This document shows, piece by piece, positions 1 through 8,137 of a stretch of 8,137 nucleotides of DNA. Under the pieces are notes generated by a model. The model made no database searches, was not told the origin of the DNA, and saw only the letters and a list, made by a program, of their open reading frames with translations. This DNA is from Planctomycetota bacterium (GTDB taxonomy: Bacteria; Planctomycetota; Phycisphaerae; WQYP01): NCBI GenBank assembly GCA_021852245.1, contig JAJZNY010000426.1, positions 1 to 8,137 of the forward strand, in the 5' to 3' direction. Position numbers and translations under genes: made by a program. Every line of letters begins with the position of its first letter. The stretch's first letter is position 1.

Positions 1-47
1 GTCCGCCAATGGCAAGGCAAAGCTGAAACACCATTTCGGAGCACCGA
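1..47. other. Window edge upstream of the synthetase gene; preceding gene unresolved
   Basis: These bases probably hold the end of a preceding plus-strand gene, but the frame cannot be decided. Frame 3 stops at a TGA at 24-26, 21 nt before the synthetase start. Frame 1 stays open to a TAG at 67-69, which would overlap the synthetase by 22 nt. Frame 2 stays open to 110. No recognisable protein motif is seen in any of them. A GGAG at 38-41 is the likely ribosome binding site of the next gene. Confidence 0.25.
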
Positions 48-1532
48 TTGTTACTGGAAACCATTTTAGAGCAGGGCCGCCAACGCAAACGACAGACGGC
101 CATTGTCGATGATCGCGGCGAGGTGAGCTTTTCTCAATTGCGGGCGGCGGGAAGCATCATGCTGGGGCATATCAATCGATCCCGACGATCCACGGAGCGG
201 ATCGGTATCCTCATCCCGCAATCCGCAGGGTGTGCCATCGCATTCCTGGCGGCCCGGTTGTCGAACCGGGTGGCGGTCATGTTGAATTTCCTGTTAAAAC
301 CGGCGGAGCTGGTGGACATCTGCCGCGATGCACAATTGGAAGTTGTGATCAGCATTACGTATTTCAAAGAACATAACGAGGCGCTCGCGCAAGCGGGCTT
401 GGAGGTGATGTTGATGGATCAACTCTCCTTCCGCCGAATCCCCTGGCCGCGTCGCAGGCCGCAACGGAAGCCGGATGATGTGGCGGTGATTCTCCATACC
501 AGCGGCACATCTTCCTCGCCCAAAGGTGTCATGCTGACGAATGAAAATCTGGATTCTAATGCCCACGCCTCCATTGCCCACGCACGCTTTAACCAGCAGA
601 TGACCTTTCTGGGTGTGCTGCCGATGTTTCACGCTCTGGGGCTTATGGCCACCTGCCTGATCCCGCTGAGCCTGGGTTGCAAAGTCATTTACATTGCAAG
701 ATTCAATCCGTCCGCGGTTGTCGATGCCGTGCGCAAACATCACGTGCAGGTATTGGTGGCGGTGCCGACGATGTACGCTCTTCTGGCCCATTCCAAAGCC
801 GCGTCACGCGAAGCACTGGCGAGTGTGAAGTACGCCATCAGCGGAGGCGAACCGCTCCCCGTGGCACTGATCGGCGAATATCAGGATCGTTTCGGCATTC
901 CACTGCTCGAGGGTTTCGGCCTGACGGAAACCTCACCCATGGTGTCATTTAACGTCCCTTGGGCGTGGAAAGCCGGCTCCGTCGGTCGCCCCATTTCCGG
1001 GGTGGAGATAAAAATTGTCGACGATCAAGGAAATGAAATCAGCGATGGTGGATCGGGAGAGCTTTGGGTTCGTGGGCCGAATGTGATGAAGGGGTATTTC
1101 AATCGACCGCAGGAAACGGCGGAAGTGCTGACGCCTGACGGTTGGTTTAAGACGGGGGATATCGCCCGCCGGGATGGCGAGGGTTTTCTCTACATCACGG
1201 GACGGAAGAAGGAACTGATCATCATGGGGGGAGAAAAAATCGTCCCGGCGCAGATCGAGGAAGTCCTTCGGAAATTTCCCGGGGTCGTGCTTGCTGCCGT
1301 CATTGGTGTGAAAGATCCGCAGCGAGGTGAAGCGCCGGTCGCATTTATTCAATGGAATCCAGATGTGCAATGCAAACCCACACCGCAGGAACTCCGGGCG
1401 TTTGTCTGCCGGTCGTTGGCGGCGTACAAGGCCCCGCGGGAATTCTATTATGTTGACGAAATGCCCCGCACTCCCACCGGAAAAATTTCTAAAAGGCATC
1501 TCGCCGTGCCGACGCAAGAGCAGTGCGTCTAG
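48..1532 (+). CDS. AMP-dependent acyl-CoA/acyl-ACP synthetase (ANL superfamily)
   Basis: Adenylate-forming ligase of 494 aa, which activates a carboxylic acid (probably a fatty acid) with ATP to an acyl-AMP and transfers it to CoA or a carrier protein. All core motifs are visible: the phosphate-binding loop TSGTSSSPKG (151-160), GFGLTET with its conserved Glu (289-295), GWFKTGD with the ribose-binding Asp371, the hinge GRKKELIIMGGEKI (385-398), and PRTPTGKISK near the end with catalytic Lys479. Length is normal to slightly short for the family. The start is a TTG at 48, preceded by GGAG at 38-41 with a 6-nt gap; an in-frame TGA at 24-26 rules out a longer form. There is no signal peptide, so it should be cytoplasmic or membrane-associated. 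The next gene is convergent, 37 bp away. Substrate chain length and acceptor cannot be read from the sequence; long-chain acyl-CoA ligase or acyl-ACP synthetase are the likeliest options. Confidence 0.9.
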   Translation: MLLETILEQGRQRKRQTAIVDDRGEVSFSQLRAAGSIMLGHINRSRRSTERIGILIPQSAGCAIAFLAARLSNRVAVMLNFLLKPAELVDICRDAQLEVVISITYFKEHNEALAQAGLEVMLMDQLSFRRIPWPRRRPQRKPDDVAVILHTSGTSSSPKGVMLTNENLDSNAHASIAHARFNQQMTFLGVLPMFHALGLMATCLIPLSLGCKVIYIARFNPSAVVDAVRKHHVQVLVAVPTMYALLAHSKAASREALASVKYAISGGEPLPVALIGEYQDRFGIPLLEGFGLTETSPMVSFNVPWAWKAGSVGRPISGVEIKIVDDQGNEISDGGSGELWVRGPNVMKGYFNRPQETAEVLTPDGWFKTGDIARRDGEGFLYITGRKKELIIMGGEKIVPAQIEEVLRKFPGVVLAAVIGVKDPQRGEAPVAFIQWNPDVQCKPTPQELRAFVCRSLAAYKAPREFYYVDEMPRTPTGKISKRHLAVPTQEQCV

Positions 1533-1550
1533 CAAAAGTCCCTCATATCC

Positions 1551-1563
1551 CATCGGCCCGATG
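1551..1563. other. Short palindrome between convergent genes
   Basis: The 37-bp gap between the convergent synthetase and protease genes contains CATCGG-C-CCGATG, a 6-bp inverted repeat around a single base. It could help end transcription from both sides, but the effective loop is tight and neither strand has a T-run after it. Only its position argues for a terminator. Confidence 0.25.
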
Positions 1564-1569
1564 CGGAGA

Positions 1570-2511
1570 TCAATGGGGCGCGGTATCTCCCGGCGTGCCC
1601 GCATCAACCGTTGCGACCGTCAGCCAGTCCGCAATCGGATGGGTGGAATGACACATGCCGCAGGTAATGGGTACATGGGTATAGCGTTGTCCGCAGCCGG
1701 GACAGACGGCGTGGGCGGCGAAGATGTCAAATTGTGTGTTACATTGCGGGCACTTGATGTTTAATCCTGCCGGGGGGCTGTTCTGGCACTGCGGGCAATG
1801 GCAGTCGGAATGAACTGCCGGGGCATTCTGGATCCGACCGGCATTGATATACGCGCGGCGGGCGGTAAAGAAGAGGAACCCCATGATCAGAACGGCATAA
1901 ATATTATTTGCAATTCCCCCTTGTGATAAAAGCAGGATCAGCAGGCCCAGCGAGCCGATCATGCCGATGGCGGCGGCGATGCGAATCGCCTTGGCCTCCT
2001 TCATGAACAGCCAGAGGATGCTGGAAAGTATCTGTCCTCCGTCAAGCGGATAAATCGGCAGGATATTAAAAATCAGTAGAACAATATTCATGAGTTGCAG
2101 GGCGGCCAGGAAGTGGATCACGTTGAGATTCAGACTCGCGTGGTCGGCGGCCGCTAGATGATTCAAACCGTAAAACACGGGCACCAGCACCACGTTAACC
2201 AGCGGACCGGCCGCGATGGCCCAGAGCGTGGCGAGCGGCCGTCGTGGGGCATTGACAAAAGCGATGCCGCCGAACGGCCAGAGGATGATCGTATCGGCCT
2301 TGCCGCCGACACTGCGGGTCGCCAGTGCATGGCCGAATTCATGCGTTAAGACAATGGCGAAAAGCCCCAGTGCCTCGGCATAATTCCATACCGGACTCGA
2401 GTACCGCTTAATGGGAGATTGGGCGAAGAACCACAGAGCCAGAAACCATGTGTAATGCAGGTAAACCGTGATACCCGCCACTCTAAAAAGCTTAATTGCG
2501 CCACGGAACAT
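1570..2511 (-). CDS. M50 family (site-2 / SpoIVFB-like) membrane zinc metalloprotease with zinc-ribbon tail
   Basis: Integral-membrane metalloprotease of 313 aa that would cut substrates within or near the membrane. The zinc-binding HEFGH is at residues 57-61 inside a hydrophobic segment. WPFGGIA (79-84) and AGPLVN (101-106) follow, and the third-ligand motif NILPIYPLDGG is at 149-159 with Asp157. Hydrophobic segments near 11-30, 45-66, 95-115, 132-152, 175-196 and 203-216 fit a polytopic protein of the SpoIVFB/group III type. The C-terminal ~80 residues are soluble and carry Cys pairs C239/C242 (with C237), C254/C257, C270/C273 and C284/C287, which look like tandem zinc ribbons. The ATG at 2511 is preceded by GAGG with a 7-nt gap. 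It converges on the synthetase gene. The substrate is unknown; nothing nearby looks like an anti-sigma factor or other classic target. Confidence 0.9.
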   Translation of the reverse strand: MFRGAIKLFRVAGITVYLHYTWFLALWFFAQSPIKRYSSPVWNYAEALGLFAIVLTHEFGHALATRSVGGKADTIILWPFGGIAFVNAPRRPLATLWAIAAGPLVNVVLVPVFYGLNHLAAADHASLNLNVIHFLAALQLMNIVLLIFNILPIYPLDGGQILSSILWLFMKEAKAIRIAAAIGMIGSLGLLILLLSQGGIANNIYAVLIMGFLFFTARRAYINAGRIQNAPAVHSDCHCPQCQNSPPAGLNIKCPQCNTQFDIFAAHAVCPGCGQRYTHVPITCGMCHSTHPIADWLTVATVDAGTPGDTAPH

Positions 2512-2551
2512 GGATGATCCTCAACCAAATCTTTGCACCACGCGAGCTCTT

Positions 2552-2565
2552 GTGCGGTGCCGCAC
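2552..2565 (-). other. Hairpin in the leader of the M50 protease gene
   Basis: GTGCGG and CCGCAC are separated by two bases, giving a compact inverted repeat about 41 nt upstream of the protease ATG. In the leader RNA the outer pairs could form a small stem. No function is evident. Confidence 0.35.
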
Positions 2566-2603
2566 GGCGGAATTCGCCCCATTTATCACTCCGGCCGGGC
2601 GCT

Positions 2604-2627
2604 TATACCGCTATACCACTATAGGGC
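2604..2627. repeat. Three tandem 8-bp TATA-containing units
   Basis: TATACCGC, TATACCAC and TATAGGGC follow each other without gaps. The minus strand, which reads towards the M50 gene ~90 bp away, shows TATAGT, TATAGC and TATAAG as possible -10 boxes. None has a good -35 at 16-18 bp, so a promoter is only possible. Confidence 0.35.
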
Positions 2628-2661
2628 AGATTACGGTAAATGGCGCCCCGCGCCGCCGAGT

Positions 2662-2724
2662 GCAGGTGATTCACGACCAGGGCAGATGTCAGCCGGTTTA
2701 TTTATCCGCCGCTGGCCATCGCGG
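2662..2724 (+). repeat. Dispersed repeat, left copy (inverted relative to 6423-6486)
   Basis: This 63-bp stretch matches the reverse complement of 6423-6486 at about 46 of 64 aligned positions. Identical blocks are gcaggtga, tcacgacca, agccggt, ttta and tggccatcgcgg, and the spacings between them are equal to within one base. The conserved spacing makes chance unlikely. Translating the two copies gives only weakly similar peptides, so a non-coding element is favoured over a gene remnant. Confidence 0.6.
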
Positions 2725-2773
2725 TGAGCAGCTGCTGCCTGCAGGGAAAGAAAGAGAAACCGATTAAACCGCA

Positions 2774-2800
2774 GGGGACGGGCGGGCGGGCGGCGCCGCC
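2774..2800 (+). other. G-quadruplex motif overlapping a 12-bp perfect palindrome
   Basis: Four G-runs of at least three with 1-2-nt loops (GGGG-AC-GGG-C-GGG-C-GGG, 2774-2790) meet the usual quadruplex pattern. They overlap GGCGGCGCCGCC (2789-2800), which is its own reverse complement. The run begins in an accgcaggggacg segment also found in the repeat at 6380-6416. Confidence 0.5.
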
Positions 2801-2843
2801 AGAAAGGCGAGAGTCGAGGGGGAGAAAGTTGAGCAAGCACGCT

Positions 2844-2860
2844 TCATGCCTGCGGCATGA
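2844..2860. other. Hairpin TCATGCC-TGC-GGCATGA
   Basis: A 7-bp perfect stem with a 3-base loop. A T-rich stretch (tgcttttttatc) begins about 10 nt later on the plus strand, too far away for a classical intrinsic terminator, and no plus-strand gene ends just before it. Confidence 0.45.
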
Positions 2861-2968
2861 TGTAGTCTGCTTTTTTATCACGCTAAGAATGAAAGGCACT
2901 AAGATTTTTGAATTAGCTCCTTACGCTTTTCCGTACCCTCCCGCGCGCCATGCGGCCATGATTTTGTT

Positions 2969-3005
2969 TCATTTTTACCGCAGGGTACGCGGAGGTTCGC
3001 AGAGG
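2969..3005 (+). repeat. 'accgcaggg' intergenic repeat, left copy
   Basis: This 37-bp segment matches the reverse complement of 6380-6416 at 30 of 37 positions. It has a weak internal periodicity of about ten bases (acgc.gagg-like units). From general familiarity, units of this style are widespread between genes in PVC-group and related genomes and are often mis-called as short proteins. Confidence 0.6.
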
Positions 3006-3015
3006 TAGAGGTTAC

Positions 3016-3056
3016 TGAGGCCGCGAGCCCAAACACGCGACCATACCACGGCCTCA
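3016..3056. other. Stem-loop TGAGGCCG ... CGGCCTCA
   Basis: An 8-bp perfect inverted repeat encloses 25 bases. Its right arm lies inside the leader-like repeat 3036-3085. The other copy of that repeat (6281-6330) has the right arm but not the left one. Confidence 0.45.
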
Positions 3057-3085
3057 AAATGGAATTTACAATGAAAATATAACGC
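3036..3085 (-). repeat. Leader-like repeat, orphan copy of the RHS gene's 5' region
   Basis: Aligned without gaps to 6281-6330, 40 of 50 positions agree, including 29 of the first 31 and all of tataacgc at the far end. In the other copy this segment holds the -10 box, the GAGG ribosome binding site and the start codon of the RHS gene. Here the minus strand has TATATT, then TTGAGG, then ATGGTCGCG, but the open frame ends after ten codons. The copy points towards the M50 gene, ~525 bp away. Confidence 0.65.
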
Positions 3086-3124
3086 CGGGGCGATGCGGGG
3101 AAATTGCCGCCTGATTGCATCCAT

Positions 3125-3143
3125 CCACCTTTTTAATAGGTGG
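3125..3143. other. Hairpin CCACCT-(7)-AGGTGG beside the IS left end
   Basis: A 6-bp perfect inverted repeat with loop ttttaat. Its right arm overlaps the left arm (3139-3145) of a second hairpin split by the IS, so the two structures would have been mutually exclusive before the insertion. Confidence 0.4.
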
Positions 3144-3152
3144 CCGTCTCTA

Positions 3153-3167
3153 GTGTAGTGAATTAAA
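3153..3167 (+). repeat. IS630-family left terminal inverted repeat
   Basis: GTGTAGTGAATTAAA pairs with the right end at 14 of 15 positions and is directly preceded by the duplicated TA at 3151-3152. Confidence 0.9.
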
Positions 3168-3227
3168 ATTATTGTAACTTATCATTGGGTGTTGCGTGTT
3201 ACCTCATAGAAAGCGAGGATAACACCG

Positions 3228-4313
3228 ATGCGTGTAGCTCCAGCCATTACCGTAACCGAGACAGATCGAAAAACGCTCGAACGCTGGGCGCGGGGACACA
3301 GTACGCCTGTGCGGCTGATGCAACGGGCGCAGATCGTGCTGGCGGCCGCTTTGGGTCGGGACAACCAGGACATTGCTGAGGCCGTTGGGGTAAGCCGCCA
3401 ATTGGTAGGACGCTGGCGGAATCGTTATTCCAAGCAGGGACTGGCGGGCATAGCTCAAGATGCCCCCGGACGGGGACGAAAGCCCAAGGTAAGGGATGCG
3501 GTTGCGGCCAAGATCATTCATGCCACCACGCAGACCCAACCGCCCGCCGGCACCCACTGGAGCACGAGAACCCTGGCCAGGGAACTGGGCGTGAGCGCCT
3601 CGATGGTCAGCCGGGTCTGGCGAGCCAACCAACTCAAGCCCCACCTGAGCCGGACTTTCAAACTGAGTAACGACCCGAATTTCATTGCCAAGGTGACCGA
3701 CGTGGTGGGCCTGTACCTGAACCCGCCGGAGCACGCCATCGTGCTGTGCTGTGATGAGAAGAGTCAGATTCAGGCCCTGGATCGCACACAGCCCGGGCTT
3801 CCGCTCAAGAAAGGCCGATGTGGAACCATGACGCACGATTACAAGCGGAACGGCACGACCACGCTTTTCGCAGCGCTGGACATGACGGAAGGCAAACTCA
3901 TCAGCACCTGCGTGCCAAGGCACCGCCATCAGGAATGGCTCAAGTTCCTGCGTCTCATCGACGAGCAGACGCCGCCGGATTTGGAGCTCCATCTGATCGC
4001 GGATAACTACCACACGCACAAGCACCCGAAGGTGCAGCGATGGCTGGCCAGGCATCCGCGTTTCCACATGCACTTTATCCCCACCAGCAGTTCATGGCTC
4101 AACCTCGTCGAACGCTGGTTCCGGGAGATCACCGACAAACGCATCCGCCGGGGCGTATTCAAAAGTGTCCCGCAGTTGATCGATGCCATCAACGAATTCG
4201 TTGAACATCACAATCAAAGCCCAAAGGCTTTCGTCTGGACCGCCAAGCTCGAACGCATTCTGGAAAAAGTTGCCAAGGCACGCGCCGTCCTCAATAATGC
4301 TCAATCTATTTGA
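3228..4313 (+). CDS. IS630 family transposase (DDE)
   Basis: Transposase of 361 aa that would cut and paste the surrounding element at TA sites. The N-terminal third carries two helix-turn-helix-like parts: [18 protein letters not shown] around 46-63, and a second near 112-131 ([20 protein letters not shown]), separated by a basic GRGRKPK stretch (81-87). The DDE catalytic core follows: Asp176 in LCCDEKSQ, Asp259 in [12 protein letters not shown] and Glu295 in [12 protein letters not shown], 35 residues between the last two as expected. No frameshift or internal stop is present. The ATG at 3228 has GAGG at 3215-3218. The TGA stop falls inside the right terminal repeat, so the gene fills the element. 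Nothing suggests it works with the flanking genes. Confidence 0.95.
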
Positions 4314-4323
4314 TTCACTACAC
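4309..4323 (-). repeat. IS630-family right terminal inverted repeat
   Basis: Read on the minus strand it is GTGTAGTGAATCAAA, with one mismatch to the left end. It overlaps the transposase stop codon and is followed by the duplicated TA at 4324-4325. Confidence 0.9.
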
Positions 4324-4433
4324 TAGAAGGCCACCATTGACATTCGAGACAGCCGACACTAAATGCACGCCGGTTTTGCGCCACGAAGGGTGAGGGCCCA
4401 GCTGCGGGGCGGCGGGTTGGTCTGGACGCGGGT

Positions 4434-5315
4434 TTATCGGCGCCGCAGCAGCGCCCGCCAAGGCTTTGCCTCCATCACCCTCTTTGCCGTCTCAGGTGCA
4501 GGGAGGTTGATCCTCAGCGTATGCGACCGGATGTAGTCCGCGATTTGCCTCCAAGTGGAGTTAAAAACAAACCTCGTGGTCGGCCACTTCCGAAGGACCC
4601 GGAGCGATCTGAGCCGCACCACCTTTGCGAGCGTCGCGGGCATGAGGTAGGGGTTGCCGGTACCGCTACCCCACCAATATCCACGGTTATTTGACCAATA
4701 ATACTCCGAGGCGGGATGGGGGAGCCTGTTGCCTCTATCAGCTACCCCGACGACCAACGGGGAAAGCGAGATGACGTAAAATGGTGTGTTTCCGCCCCGC
4801 ATCATCAGACCCGCCGCTTTTGCCACGCTGGGAATACTCTTCGCGAGGGGCACGATGTCTCCCCAGTGGGGAGGACCGATGATGCCGAGCCACCATGGCG
4901 GCCAGGGGTGCCGTTTCCGCGAAAACTCGTAGTATAAATAATCCGGGATAGGGAGCGGTACGAGAAGCGTCCTCGAAATATACTGGACATAAATAATTCG
5001 CGGGCCAGCCGACGTAGCAACCATGAATTTATGATAGTAGCAATATTCTTTCGCACGCGTGGGCCGCGCAGCCCCGGTGCTGGCCGCAGCAGCCGGGGCG
5101 CCCTGCGGGTCCAAGCCTCCGCCCTGGGGGTTCACCCCCACAGGCCCGCCGCCCGGCGATTTTTGCGCCGCCGTGTATGCGAACTGCTGGAAACCCCAGT
5201 TTTCGTAATAAGCCACGCAGCCCGCATTTGTCCCCAGGCCCCCGGCCAGCAAGCACAACAGTGCCACGTGCCTCACGTGATTTGTAATCTTGCAATCGCA
5301 ATGAGGTACTTTCAT
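4434..5315 (-). CDS. Putative lipoprotein, candidate immunity partner of the RHS hydrolase
   Basis: Unrecognised protein of 293 aa. Its start is fixed by an ATGA overlap: the ATG (5315-5313) shares bases with the TGA stop of the upstream RHS gene, and GGAG lies 9 nt before it. The N-terminus has a hydrophobic stretch VALLCLLAGGLG (17-28) followed by TNAGC, a possible lipobox with Cys33 as the lipidated residue. Asn at -3 is unusual, so lipidation is likely but not certain. A Gly/Pro/Ala-rich linker (54-85) leads to a Trp/Tyr-rich domain (about 90-265) with a basic C-terminus ending RRR. No enzyme motif was found. Tight coupling to a lipase-like RHS C-terminal domain suggests an immunity protein guarding the cell envelope, as lipoprotein immunity proteins do for some lipase effectors. 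The open frame extends upstream to 5456, but that part lies inside the RHS gene. An accessory or chaperone role is the main alternative. Confidence 0.7.
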   Translation of the reverse strand: MKVPHCDCKITNHVRHVALLCLLAGGLGTNAGCVAYYENWGFQQFAYTAAQKSPGGGPVGVNPQGGGLDPQGAPAAAASTGAARPTRAKEYCYYHKFMVATSAGPRIIYVQYISRTLLVPLPIPDYLYYEFSRKRHPWPPWWLGIIGPPHWGDIVPLAKSIPSVAKAAGLMMRGGNTPFYVISLSPLVVGVADRGNRLPHPASEYYWSNNRGYWWGSGTGNPYLMPATLAKVVRLRSLRVLRKWPTTRFVFNSTWRQIADYIRSHTLRINLPAPETAKRVMEAKPWRALLRRR

Positions 5316-6289
5316 TTGTAGTTGCTCCGGGTGTAGGGTATTTGGTCCATGAGTGTTTCGAAGGCCCCCATGACGGATTTGAGAAGGAGCGTCCAGCCAT
5401 TTTTGTGTGAGCCAGTGTAATAGTAGCCTGCCGGATGCGGGTTCACCGGAAGCCAATTGACCGGTCCGCCAGTGTAAAAATCCCCTTGGGCGTAGTCAGC
5501 CCTCACGAGGAACCTGTTCTGTGCGCCTCTCACTGGGTTCCCTTGTAAAACACCGAAATAATCATTGTCGCCGTGTTGGTAAAAGTTGATCCACTTGGCG
5601 GTGGTACTCGGCTTGAAGAAGAAATGGCCCTCGCCGCCAAATACATGCCCGAGCCATTGGAGGCCCTGGGCGATGGGGTCGACGGTGAAACCGGCGTTCA
5701 CCTTGATCCCTTTCTGCGCGAGGCGCCCGGCGAAGCGCAGTGCCGCCGAGCCCCCGTTGCTGAATCCGACCACCAAAATCGTGTTGTATTTGCACTTGTC
5801 AGGGCCGGAGCCGCCGATGGGCTTGGTGAGCATCGGTGTGACCTGGCTCACGGCGCGGCCGATGGAATATTCCGGGTAATACATTGTGACGGTGTCTTTC
5901 CGACGCCAGGCCCCGGTGTTTTGGAGGAACCATTTGAGATAAGGCTGCGAAATCCAGTTAAGCAATTGATTCGGCTTGCCTCCCGGGTGCTTGCCACGGT
6001 AGCCGCCCAGGCCCTCGAGGGCCACGATTATCAGCTCGTCGCCCATGGGGTCCGCCGCCCCCACCGGCGAGGAATTGACGTAGCCGTAAAGATTGATTCC
6101 GCCCTGATAACCGATTGGATCGCGGGTAAGCCAGCGGCCGAAAGCCACGGCGCGGAGATGGTTGCGGGTTGCCGGTGCTCGGTTTTCGGCATTGCGGCGG
6201 TGGACGCGGCCGTCCGTGCAAATGCCAGCCTTGCCGCCGCACCCTTCACCAGTGCATTCGGGCAACAGAATTTTATTTGTCGCGACCAT
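5312..6289 (-). CDS. Mini-RHS protein with alpha/beta-hydrolase (lipase-like) C-terminal domain
   Basis: Protein of 325 aa. Residues 51-83 are the end of an RHS-repeat core: GRWLTRDPIGYQGG, then INLYGYVNSSPV, then DPMG, the point after which RHS proteins switch to a variable toxin domain. Residues 84-325 look like an alpha/beta hydrolase: a hydrophobic strand, then GFSNGG (175-180) with nucleophile Ser177, then TVDPI with Asp204 as candidate acid, and His239 or His295 as candidate base; GLGG (93-96) may belong to the oxyanion site. The first 50 residues contain Cys12, Cys17 and Cys24 but no YD repeats, so the large RHS shell is absent. There is no signal peptide, so the export route is unknown. 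The ATG at 6289 has GAGG 7 nt upstream and a good promoter. The next gene overlaps by 4 nt (ATGA). Likely role: a lipase/esterase-type effector of the polymorphic toxin kind; a displaced orphan fragment is also possible. Confidence 0.78.
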   Translation of the reverse strand: MVATNKILLPECTGEGCGGKAGICTDGRVHRRNAENRAPATRNHLRAVAFGRWLTRDPIGYQGGINLYGYVNSSPVGAADPMGDELIIVALEGLGGYRGKHPGGKPNQLLNWISQPYLKWFLQNTGAWRRKDTVTMYYPEYSIGRAVSQVTPMLTKPIGGSGPDKCKYNTILVVGFSNGGSAALRFAGRLAQKGIKVNAGFTVDPIAQGLQWLGHVFGGEGHFFFKPSTTAKWINFYQHGDNDYFGVLQGNPVRGAQNRFLVRADYAQGDFYTGGPVNWLPVNPHPAGYYYTGSHKNGWTLLLKSVMGAFETLMDQIPYTRSNYK

Positions 6290-6330
6290 AACGCGGCCTC
6301 AAAATGGAATTCTCCCAGGAGTTATAACGC
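6281..6330 (-). repeat. Leader-like repeat, copy at the RHS gene start
   Basis: Matches 3036-3085 at 40 of 50 positions in the same orientation. On the minus strand it spans the -10 box TATAAC, the GAGG ribosome binding site and the first codons (ATGGTCGCG) of the RHS gene. Similarity stops just inside the coding region. Confidence 0.65.
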
Positions 6331-6349
6331 ACGGGGAAGGCGGAATCAA
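6321..6349 (-). promoter_or_regulatory. Sigma-70-like promoter of the RHS/lipoprotein pair
   Basis: On the minus strand TTGATT (6349-6344) and TATAAC (6326-6321) are separated by exactly 17 bp. They match the consensus at 4 of 6 and 5 of 6 positions. Transcription would start near 6314, giving a ~25-nt leader that contains the GAGG ribosome binding site before the ATG at 6289. This would let the pair be expressed independently of hisA-cysE. Confidence 0.55.
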
Positions 6350-6358
6350 ACGGCGGCC

Positions 6359-6372
6359 GGGACGGCCGTCCC
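6359..6372. other. 14-bp perfect palindrome GGGACGGCCGTCCC
   Basis: The sequence equals its own reverse complement. It lies 10 bp upstream of the -35 box of the RHS gene. It could be a dimeric regulator site or simply part of the intergenic repeat complex. Confidence 0.5.
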
Positions 6373-6379
6373 ACGTTTT

Positions 6380-6416
6380 CCTCAGCGTTCCACTGCGTCC
6401 CCTGCGGTGAAAATGA
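6380..6416 (-). repeat. 'accgcaggg' intergenic repeat, right copy
   Basis: On the minus strand it matches 2969-3005 at 30 of 37 positions, starting with a shared tcatttt and continuing through accgcaggg and acgc units. Confidence 0.6.
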
Positions 6417-6422
6417 TTTTTC

Positions 6423-6486
6423 CCGCGATGGCCACCGGTGAGGTAAATCCACCGGCTCGTATTCATGATGGTCGTGATTCACCTGC
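6423..6486 (-). repeat. Dispersed repeat, right copy (inverted relative to 2662-2724)
   Basis: The reverse complement aligns with 2662-2724 at about 46 of 64 positions with five identical blocks of 4-12 bases. It sits directly before the 'accgcaggg' repeat, the same order as on the left side of the window. Confidence 0.6.
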
Positions 6487-6554
6487 GCCGCGGCGCGGGT
6501 CGCATAACCGTGCTTGCGGGGTTTTTCCGGGCGTGCAAAAACAGCTTCACACAA

Positions 6555-6566
6555 GCCGCTTGCGGC
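6555..6566 (-). terminator. Weak hairpin downstream of cysE
   Basis: GCCGC and GCGGC are separated by two bases, 49 nt beyond the cysE stop on the minus strand; a TTTTT run follows ~11 nt later. Loop size and T-run distance are poor for an intrinsic terminator, so this is only a candidate for the end of the hisA-cysE transcript. Confidence 0.2.
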
Positions 6567-6614
6567 ATGTTCCAAGGCCTTGAGAACGGACCGAGACACG
6601 AAGTCGTCTGGCTC

Positions 6615-7559
6615 TTAAATTTGAAAATCCGGCGGCAATTCCTGAACAAATTCACGCGGCGGCCGATTGCGGTATTGCAGTTCGGGGTGTTTGACGCTCA
6701 CGCGGGTATTGGCGGGCACGGACTGGGTGACAAATACATTTCCATTAATGGTGGCGCCGCGCCCGACCACGGTCTCACCCCCGAGAATACTCGCATTCGG
6801 GTAAACCATCACATCGTCTTCAAGTGTCGGGTGACGTTTGGAACCGCGCAGACTCTGCCCGCCACGCGTGGATAACGCGCCGAGCGTAACGCCCTGATAA
6901 ATTTTCACGTTGCGCCCGATGACGGTGGTTTCGCCGATCACCACGCCCGTTCCGTGATCAATGAAAAAATATTCGCCTATCCGCGCACCCGGGTGGATAT
7001 CAATGCCGGTGAGGCTGTGGGCATATTCGGTCATGGCACGCGGAATAAGGGGTACGCCGAGCCGGTGCAGTTCGTGTGCCACCCGGTAGATGGTAATCGC
7101 AAGATAGCCCGGGTAGCTGAAGATGATCTCATCAATGCTGGCGGCCGCCGGGTCGCCGTCAAACGCCGCCTCCGCATCGGTCGCAAGCACGCGCCGGATT
7201 TCCGGCAGGGTGCCGAGAAACTCGTCAACATTGGCCAGCGCCGTCGAATCGCAATCCGGGCAATCCCCTTTTCCGCCGCGCTGATGCTGATGCCGGATGG
7301 CACGCCTTACCTGATCAAAAAGCATGTCCCGCAGACGCGTGATCAGCGAATGCACATGGAAGGACAGGTCCACACTGCTGAGATTCTGGCGGCCGAAAAA
7401 GCCGGGAAAAAGGAGTTCCCGCAATAGAGAGCATATCTCGATGATGGTATCGCGGCTCGGCAGGTAGTTCGAACCCACATACGCCGTGGACGGCTGAGAT
7501 TCGTAGCTGCTGATCAGGGCATCGGTGAGTTTGCCGATATCTCCGGGAGCTTGTCGCAT
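6615..7559 (-). CDS. cysE: Serine O-acetyltransferase (long EpsC/CysE type)
   Basis: Makes O-acetyl-L-serine from serine and acetyl-CoA, the first step of cysteine synthesis in the cytoplasm. From the ATG at 7559 it has 314 aa, longer than the ~270 aa of E. coli CysE because of an extended helical N-terminus (about 1-150) that includes a CPDC pair (Cys100, Cys103). The C-terminal half is a left-handed hexapeptide-repeat domain. TGIDIHPGA (184-192) and DHGTGVVIGET (201-211) contain Asp187 and His202, which align with the catalytic Asp143/His158 of E. coli CysE. KIYQGVTLGALSTRGG and VYPNASILGG continue the coil. The frame extends upstream to a GTG at 7631. The ATG is preferred because GGAG lies 11 nt before it and a likely promoter and leader hairpin lie between the two candidates. 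It follows hisA by 87 nt on the same strand. Confidence 0.93.
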   Translation of the reverse strand: MRQAPGDIGKLTDALISSYESQPSTAYVGSNYLPSRDTIIEICSLLRELLFPGFFGRQNLSSVDLSFHVHSLITRLRDMLFDQVRRAIRHQHQRGGKGDCPDCDSTALANVDEFLGTLPEIRRVLATDAEAAFDGDPAAASIDEIIFSYPGYLAITIYRVAHELHRLGVPLIPRAMTEYAHSLTGIDIHPGARIGEYFFIDHGTGVVIGETTVIGRNVKIYQGVTLGALSTRGGQSLRGSKRHPTLEDDVMVYPNASILGGETVVGRGATINGNVFVTQSVPANTRVSVKHPELQYRNRPPREFVQELPPDFQI

Positions 7560-7590
7560 AACTTTAATATCTCCGTCGGGGGCGATTCCC

Positions 7591-7613
7591 GCGGCACATT
7601 GCCGCCGTGCCGC
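7591..7613 (-). promoter_or_regulatory. Leader hairpin upstream of cysE
   Basis: GCGGCAC and GTGCCGC form a perfect 7-bp stem around a 9-base loop. It would lie at the very 5' end of an RNA begun at the promoter 7620-7649, about 30 nt before the cysE ATG. It may stabilise the RNA or take part in regulation; no known cysteine riboswitch or T-box feature was recognised. Confidence 0.4.
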
Positions 7614-7619
7614 AGCGTG

Positions 7620-7649
7620 ATTATAGCTCACCGGCCTTGGCCTGGTCTA
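7620..7649 (-). promoter_or_regulatory. Likely internal promoter of cysE
   Basis: The minus strand has a perfect -10 box TATAAT (7625-7620) and a -35-like TAGACC (7649-7644, 4 of 6 matches) with an 18-bp gap. The -35 overlaps the hisA stop codon. Transcription would begin near 7613, below the GTG alternative start of cysE, which supports the ATG at 7559. Confidence 0.5.
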
Positions 7650-8137
7650 ATGGGGGGCTTTCGCCGACGCGGAAGCAAGAACCTCCACCGCCTCAGCCAC
7701 CTTCAGCGTTCCTTCGTAAATGGCCCGACCGACGATGATGCCCGCGATCGGCAGATGCATGAGTTTGCGGATGTCATCGAGTGTCGCCACCCCTCCACTG
7801 TGAATGATCGGGATATCGGGGATCAACGCTGCAAGTTCCGCAGTGGCCTGCACATTGGGGCCGGCGAGCGTGCCATCGCGCGTAATATCGGTATAGTTGA
7901 TGGCCGCCAGCGGCCACCGGGCCACGATTCCGGCAATCTGTGCGACCGTCATCGACCGGGCATTACCGCTGGTCCAACCGTGCGTGGCAGCCACGCCATC
8001 GCGGGCATCAAGCCCCAGTGAAATGCGACCGCGGAAGCGTGCGTCGTGAACGATCTTTTCAAACCATTCCAGATCATGAATCGCCCGGGTGCCGAGGATC
8101 ACACGATCGGCACCTACCGCGAGCAGATATTCCATGA
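7647..8137 (-). CDS. hisA: HisA, ProFAR isomerase (5'-truncated by the window edge)
   Basis: C-terminal ~163 residues of the (beta/alpha)8 isomerase that opens the ribose ring of ProFAR to PRFAR in histidine synthesis (a cytoplasmic enzyme). The family signature INYTDITRDGTLAGPN is complete and holds the Asp at the end of strand 5 that acts as the second catalytic acid/base. GADRVILGTRAI (strand 4), IPIIHSGGVAT (phosphate-binding Gly-Gly after strand 7) and IAGIIVGRAIYEG (strand 8) follow in the right order. HisF is excluded by the YTDI.RDGT wording. The methionine at 8135 is internal; about 80 N-terminal residues with the first catalytic Asp lie outside the window. The gene ends with TAG at 7649-7647, 87 nt before the cysE ATG. 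The two are probably co-transcribed, with an extra promoter for cysE. Confidence 0.93.
   Translation of the reverse strand, partial: MEYLLAVGADRVILGTRAIHDLEWFEKIVHDARFRGRISLGLDARDGVAATHGWTSGNARSMTVAQIAGIVARWPLAAINYTDITRDGTLAGPNVQATAELAALIPDIPIIHSGGVATLDDIRKLMHLPIAGIIVGRAIYEGTLKVAEAVEVLASASAKAPH

Follow-up and report, generated by a model that had tools for sequence, protein, structure and literature searches.

An orphan RHS-tip gene overlaps a putative immunity gene

Contig JAJZNY010000426.1 of a Planctomycetota bacterium (assembly GCA_021852245.1) was analysed over positions 1–8,137, a stretch of 8,137 nucleotides (nt) hereafter called the window. Its central feature is a two-gene cassette on the minus strand, in which an open reading frame (ORF) of 325 aa (5312–6289) shares a 4-nt ATGA overlap with a second ORF of 293 aa (4434–5315). 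Both ORFs had been listed in a preliminary description of this DNA made from the letters alone, and both are real. We read the pair as an orphan RHS-tip cassette, consisting of a gene for a predicted alpha/beta-hydrolase toxin and an overlapping gene for a putative envelope-anchored immunity protein, and assign this reading a probability of about 0.68.

The 325-aa ORF had been described as an RHS effector carrying the end of an RHS core. The core end is confirmed: residues 49–83 (6041–6145), which end in DPMG, match TIGR03696 of NCBIfam with 37.7 bits against a cut-off of 32.5 and, as in RHS polymorphic toxins, the DPxG motif stands before a variable C-terminus. The effector claim holds for this tip but not for a whole RHS protein, as the tip is an orphan with no core upstream. 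The three minus-strand frames of 6101–6900 contain no RHS sequence ahead of the ORF, only the cysE-like gene, and within the ORF itself neither a full RHS shell with its N-terminal delivery region nor a signal peptide was found. Residues 1–48 belong to a start module common to dozens of other cassettes (see below). Neither protein is matched above cut-off by any Pfam or NCBIfam model other than that of the RHS tip, and the 242 C-terminal residues (84–325; 5315–6040) had no Pfam match. Pfam covers the Tle lipase families of type VI secretion; no Tle profile matched in Pfam/NCBIfam up to E 1 and no type VI gene was identified among the window ORFs with these models.

The C-terminal domain is a predicted alpha/beta hydrolase

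The GFSNGG and TVDP motifs and the candidate histidine pointed out earlier are all present in the domain, at Ser177 (5759–5761), Asp204 (5678–5680) and His295 (5405–5407), respectively. The AlphaFold model, computed from 6 sequences (pLDDT, the predicted local distance difference test, 64; pTM, the predicted template modelling score, 0.69), predicts an alpha/beta hydrolase for residues 84–325. In this model Ser177 sits after a core strand; it is accompanied by Asp204 and His295, both invariant in 7 aligned sequences, and the three residues are kept down to 26% identity. The predicted arrangement is that of a serine at the nucleophile elbow with the aspartate and the histidine downstream. By title, 47 of the 50 structural matches listed for the domain model are alpha/beta hydrolases. 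An earlier model from 3 sequences (pLDDT 43.6) was too poor and was set aside; its structure matches pointed the same way. A sequence profile search of the PDB gave a lysophospholipase-like protein at E 0.38, while two designed repeat proteins at low E, of which no stretch passed alone, were regarded as spurious. The putative toxin likely acts on lipids or other envelope esters.

Two toxin relatives, P0006 and P0008, start with signal peptides when read by eye. Searches of viral contigs (for close relatives only) and of plasmids yielded no relative. A toxin copy on contig L001 (2221–2880) reaches GFSNGG, after which an apparent deletion joins it to 87 nt that match, at 93%, the 3' end of the window partner gene and the bases beyond; the toxin/partner pair therefore existed in L001 too. 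The P0009 copy, read by eye, also has an internal deletion, which joins the RHS tip to the INFYQ region.

The partner is probably an envelope-anchored immunity protein

A lipoprotein-like N-terminus had been proposed for the 293-aa partner. The hydrophobic stretch is there, but the lipobox, NAGC, departs from the canonical [LVI][ASTVI][GAS]C that follows such a stretch, and our simple rule scored the protein as N-terminally hydrophobic and not as a lipoprotein. The statement that it matches no known family stands, nothing having been detected in Pfam, NCBIfam, PADLOC or the PDB. The protein search retrieved only the partner itself among 2446 candidates, and an identical protein is also present on a second contig. 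One relative was detected in the 28 genomes of the family (G010, 29% identity, E 1.2e-7; pairwise E 9e-13), which is likewise the sole relative found in 397 genomes of the class.

This G010 relative has a canonical lipobox (LAGC) and is the last gene of a same-strand row behind an RHS tip ORF (contig L157, 11877–12740). The row comprises the tip ORF, two lipoprotein-like genes, a membrane protein gene and then the partner relative, an order that looks as expected of accumulated immunity genes. Both other sightings of the partner, the deletion remnant of L001 and the L157 row, are thus tied to RHS sequences, in two places only. Among the distant relatives of the toxin, two have a readable gene context: the G036 hydrolase overlaps a lipoprotein-like gene and the G217 hydrolase precedes one. 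Position and company argue for an immunity function, and the partner is likely an envelope-anchored immunity protein.

The putative toxin gene starts within a conserved module

The ATG of the window toxin gene lies inside a conserved start module, to which residues 1–48 and about 75 nt before the start belong. This leader (L1, 6245–6361, minus strand, about 117 nt) contains a ribosome-binding-site-like TTTTGAGG (by eye) and the start ATG GTC GC and was recognised at E 1.8e-28 by an nhmmer model built from 27 modules of other cassettes. Ahead of the start, the hexamers TTGATT-17-TATAAC are visible by eye, but no promoter came out of the strict sigma-70 scan and a self-carried one is not claimed.

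Most of the other cassettes considered here come from G014 and from the G001 bin, the metagenome-assembled genome FK5.bin10; the close relatives are fragmented genomes. Four short contigs of the bin (L034, L043, L044 and L056) are 99.3–100% identical to G014 contigs over 92–100% of their length, and others partly so. As judged from these sequences, the G001 bin most likely mixes several organisms, wholesale array transfer being an alternative, and it was used as a cassette set and not as one genome.

With this model, 60 modules were found on those contigs of the G001 bin that carry tips, 52 in the parts of G014 examined and two in the window (L1 and a second copy, L2). None occurred in six 19-kb control stretches of G001, nor in six stretches with long RHS genes. 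Among tips with enough upstream sequence, 31/36 in G014 and 37/81 in G001 have a module at most 700 nt upstream, as against 0/11 tips of the long-RHS stretches within the same distance. Conversely, 38/52 and 30/51 modules with room behind them were followed by a tip. A genome-wide DNA search placed the module in 6 of the 28 family genomes, with at least 31 matches in each of G001 and G014 (31/69 candidates scored). The ratio of nonsynonymous to synonymous polymorphism (pN/pS) of the module peptide, calculated over 37 distinct sequences, is 0.53 in frame; the two other forward frames give 1.67 and 0.71, and the opposite strand gives 1.28. This is a mild sign that the peptide is translated. Of 99 modules with a readable start, 83 stay open for 45 codons. 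The long RHS open frames of the six stretches (L144–L149), some of them cut, measure 3127–4308 aa, and three (L144, L145 and L147) show a LEPRILLS/LEQRIYMS-like motif near the N-terminus.

Related organisms hold different cassettes between cysE and M50

The minus-strand order in the window is hisA (cut), the cysE-like gene, the 325-aa ORF and the 293-aa ORF, followed by an IS630 element and an M50 protease gene. The serine acetyltransferase-like (cysE-like) gene (6615–7631, minus; TIGR01172 below its cut-off) and the M50 family protease gene (1570–2511, minus; PF02163) border a variable site. The window CysE is 97% identical to that of G014 and 76% to that of G001; by this protein, the window organism falls in the family of G001. 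Window 1–2711, which includes the M50 gene, and 6324–8135 match G014 at 92.7% and 91.5%, respectively.

Between these flanks, G014 holds a start module leading into an RHS fragment with an early stop, a gene for a 295-aa membrane protein, and L2. A contig of the G001 bin (L061), which ends before cysE, shares the M50 flank (92%) and L2 and carries a third cassette; here the gene overlapped by the tip ORF encodes a canonical lipobox. When the three site cassettes (window, G014 and L061) were compared by blastn, no similarity was found between their toxin parts or between their partner parts. In the more distant G013 and G015, cysE and M50 are adjacent with 160–200 nt between them and no module. 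L092 (G012) and L093 (G001) contain cysE without an M50 match and are uninformative on the site. These data show that the cassette at this site, which start modules bound, differs between related organisms; the window cassette is therefore likely one of a large swappable set of weapons. The C-terminus of the L061 tip ORF (1147–2184) has an NCSTHA motif and, by eye, the look of a papain-like (NlpC/P60-type) amidase.

In the window, L2 (3036–3111, minus; nhmmer E 6.3e-15) has no tip behind it, forms a direct repeat (D1, 76%) and delimits the cassette at its far end. The space between L2 and the cassette is occupied by the IS630-family element (3153–4323, plus), with a transposase gene (3228–4313; NF033545, 275.7 bits) and terminal inverted repeats; its borders and TA flanks were placed by eye, and it leaves the toxin/partner pair unbroken. 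Read by eye, the element is inserted at a TA in the loop of a short GGTGGCC/GGCCACC inverted repeat (3136–3153 and 4323–4340), which lies downstream of the partner gene and is possibly its terminator. Inverted copies of a dispersed intergenic repeat of the ACCGCAGGGGACGCAG type (2754–3012 and 6373–6422) flank the cassette site, and the repeat also occurs at the G014 site.

RHS-tip cassettes across the class

TIGR03696 scored above its cut-off in 26 of the 28 family genomes and in at least 283 of the 397 class genomes, with at most 14 candidates scored per genome. In G083, a single contig of 3.19 Mb, a stretch of 18.5 kb holds ten tips, all on one strand; such arrays are therefore not assembly artefacts. 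In G020, short tip ORFs do lie behind an open frame of 3290 aa. A figure of 95 tips per genome, obtained from matches to E 1 in the G001 bin to which L001 belongs, was rejected as a count because the bin is mixed.

The G001 and G014 stretches and the window together gave 127 tip ORFs. C-termini of at least 60 aa were present in 108 of them and fell into 59 clusters, 38 of which are singletons; the only convincing Pfam match among these C-termini is to the toxin family Ntox24 (3/108). The genes next to the tip ORFs were sorted by the simple and crude rule, which looks for a lipobox or a hydrophobic stretch at the N-terminus; tip ORFs that lacked a stop or had less than 500 nt behind them had been excluded beforehand. 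The next gene was of envelope type in 57/82 cases in the G001 bin and 14/32 in G014, compared with 20/92 controls, all taken from G001 (Fisher p 2e-10 and 0.02). Lipoproteins accounted for 18/82 and 4/32, compared with 4/92 controls (p 5e-4 and 0.20). Some contigs are identical between G001 and G014, so these two rows are not fully independent. For 41 tip ORFs from eight other class genomes, picked for tip clustering and scored with a slightly different start rule and no control, the next gene was of envelope type in 31, had an internal membrane stretch in 2, was soluble in 4 and was not found in 4.

Two adjacent cassettes of G036 (L159 934–1992 and 2902–3477; L161 1006–4542) each combine a signal peptide (by eye), a minimal RHS tip and a C-terminal domain, followed by a lipoprotein-like gene, which in the second has a canonical LSGC. 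By eye, the C-terminal domain of the second cassette resembles a phospholipase C or a nuclease, but no Pfam model scored above its cut-off.

Comparison with known systems

The closest parallel is found in the enterobacterial orphan rhs-CT/rhsI pairs of Salmonella and the orphan CdiA-CT pairs. According to two reports, such pairs are situated behind a main gene and as a rule have no translation initiation, and a Salmonella orphan was deployed after recombination with that gene (PMC3967940, PMC3150448). The window cassette shares with them an RHS tip fragment, a C-terminal domain and a directly downstream partner (here with the ATGA overlap); the orphans described there similarly act as a reservoir of alternative toxins, with shared tip sequence that would permit recombination (PMC3967940, PMC3150448). 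Unlike these orphans, the window gene starts inside its own conserved module and sits between cysE-like and M50 genes, with no main rhs gene upstream in the window; a place behind such a gene and a lack of translation initiation signals are typical of orphans though not strictly defining. Its partner is moreover of envelope type, as for many fellow cassettes.

In Tle3/Tli3, a phospholipase effector–immunity pair of type VI secretion, a lipase is neutralised by a lipoprotein (PMC9860674). An alpha/beta-hydrolase toxin is paired with a lipoprotein there and, by prediction, with a lipoprotein-like protein here; the window toxin differs by the RHS tip ahead of it, and its partner has no relatives among described families. 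Standalone toxin cassettes and alpha/beta-hydrolase toxin domains have been described for polymorphic toxins (PMC3482391). The domains Tox-ABhydrolase-1/2/3 are of this kind, and the sections of that survey at hand give them Imm66, Imm69 and SUKH partners, not lipoproteins. MafB of Neisseria likewise has a signal peptide, a constant N-terminal part and polymorphic C-termini, the common part being a MafB-N domain (same source) where the window family has an RHS tip and a short start module. No description of such cassette arrays was found in the open-access papers searched for RHS toxins of planctomycetes or Phycisphaerae. The parts are thus known. Their combination, in which RHS-tip cassettes carry their own start, occupy independent sites, would be exchanged between start modules and often have envelope-type partners, looks like a variant.

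Weighing the interpretations

The lipase-type toxin–immunity pair put forward in the preliminary description is supported in silico, and none of the three checks run (on the fold, on the surroundings of Ser177 and on the company of the partner with RHS) refuted it. Several observations nevertheless weigh against it. No Foldseek match reached E 0.001, some of the lower matches are not alpha/beta hydrolases, and pLDDT falls below 50 at residues 12–32, 124–139 and 172–212 of the modelled domain. The strict sigma-70 scan found no promoter before the toxin start. Two toxin copies elsewhere (L001 and P0009) are internally deleted and the toxin part is gone from the G014 cassette; some cassettes, to judge from their sequences, decay. 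On the partner side, the NAGC of the window protein and the QAGC of the G036 partner are non-canonical and fail the simple rule, the SVGC of the G217 partner passes the rule without being the canonical motif, and the LAGC of the G010 relative lies at Cys54, late for the start as read, and fails the rule. Nor could any sequence relation be detected between the window partner and those of G036 and G217, so that the kind of neighbour is conserved and not the family. Finally, envelope-type next genes make up under half in G014, where lipoproteins alone are non-significant.

The cassette could instead be a silent reservoir or relic: the toxin would not be made in this cell, only immunity would matter, and the toxin part would decay or await recombination onto a full-length RHS gene. 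We regard this as a serious possibility, though short of even odds. It would agree with the absence of a delivery part and of a signal peptide from the window cassette, with the deleted toxin copies and the adjoining IS630 element, and with the enterobacterial orphan Rhs/CdiA fragments, which, according to two reports, usually lack translation starts and in Salmonella came into use once they were fused to the main gene (PMC3967940, PMC3150448). The window ORF, however, has an ATG within a conserved start module, is open and keeps its triad; the in-frame pN/pS of 0.53 is a mild sign of translation, and the module is absent from the six stretches with long RHS genes.

Two other explanations assign the genes a different role. 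Certain secreted lipases depend on a membrane-bound foldase of their own, encoded by a neighbouring gene, and the pair could be an ordinary secreted esterase with its foldase or anchor, as the signal peptides read by eye on P0006 and P0008 might suggest. But the partners of related hydrolases are not detectably related to the window partner, the envelope bias is also seen beside dozens of other C-termini, and at one site relatives carry different cassettes. The toxin family repeatedly has a lipoprotein-like neighbour, but not one of recurring sequence; immunity therefore fits better than a foldase, and we consider the esterase explanation improbable. Slightly less probable still is an intracellular toxin–antitoxin or phage-defence module, which a two-gene operon with an overlap would also suit; the retrieved text of one study reports Salmonella RHS elements as toxin–antitoxin modules (PMC7043789). 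Neither protein had a PADLOC match, though, and the hydrophobic N-terminus of the partner, together with the lipobox of its relative, would not place it with a cytoplasmic toxin.

A possible mechanism and its meaning

Under the toxin–immunity reading, the toxin could be made from its own translation start without recombination or, alternatively, recombination in the conserved tip could attach it to a full-length RHS protein. It would reach the envelope side of a competitor or act from there, while the partner would be exported, become membrane-anchored and block the toxin at the envelope, thereby protecting the producer. Cassettes would be swapped as whole units (start module, tip, toxin, immunity gene) by homologous recombination between start modules or between tips. 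A wider proposal, which we hold only tentatively and think somewhat doubtful, is that these planctomycetes possess a cassette system for envelope weapons: short self-starting RHS-tip genes with paired envelope-anchored immunity genes would be kept in dozens, in arrays as well as at scattered sites, moved as units and used as stand-alone small toxins, some with a Sec signal peptide, without the giant RHS shell.

The pair itself consists of a candidate hydrolase toxin and a partner that, apart from the RHS tip, have no match above cut-off among Pfam/NCBIfam models. Where the enterobacterial orphan RHS toxins are described as dormant behind a main gene (PMC3967940, PMC3150448), the cassettes described here are self-starting and occupy independent sites. 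Since relatives of the toxin appear to be secreted with the tip only, the question arises of whether an RHS-tip toxin can work without a shell; and the excess of envelope-type next genes over controls raises the question of whether these planctomycetes fight mainly at the envelope. If the wider proposal is true, the RHS tip would be a portable toxin handle, independent of the shell.
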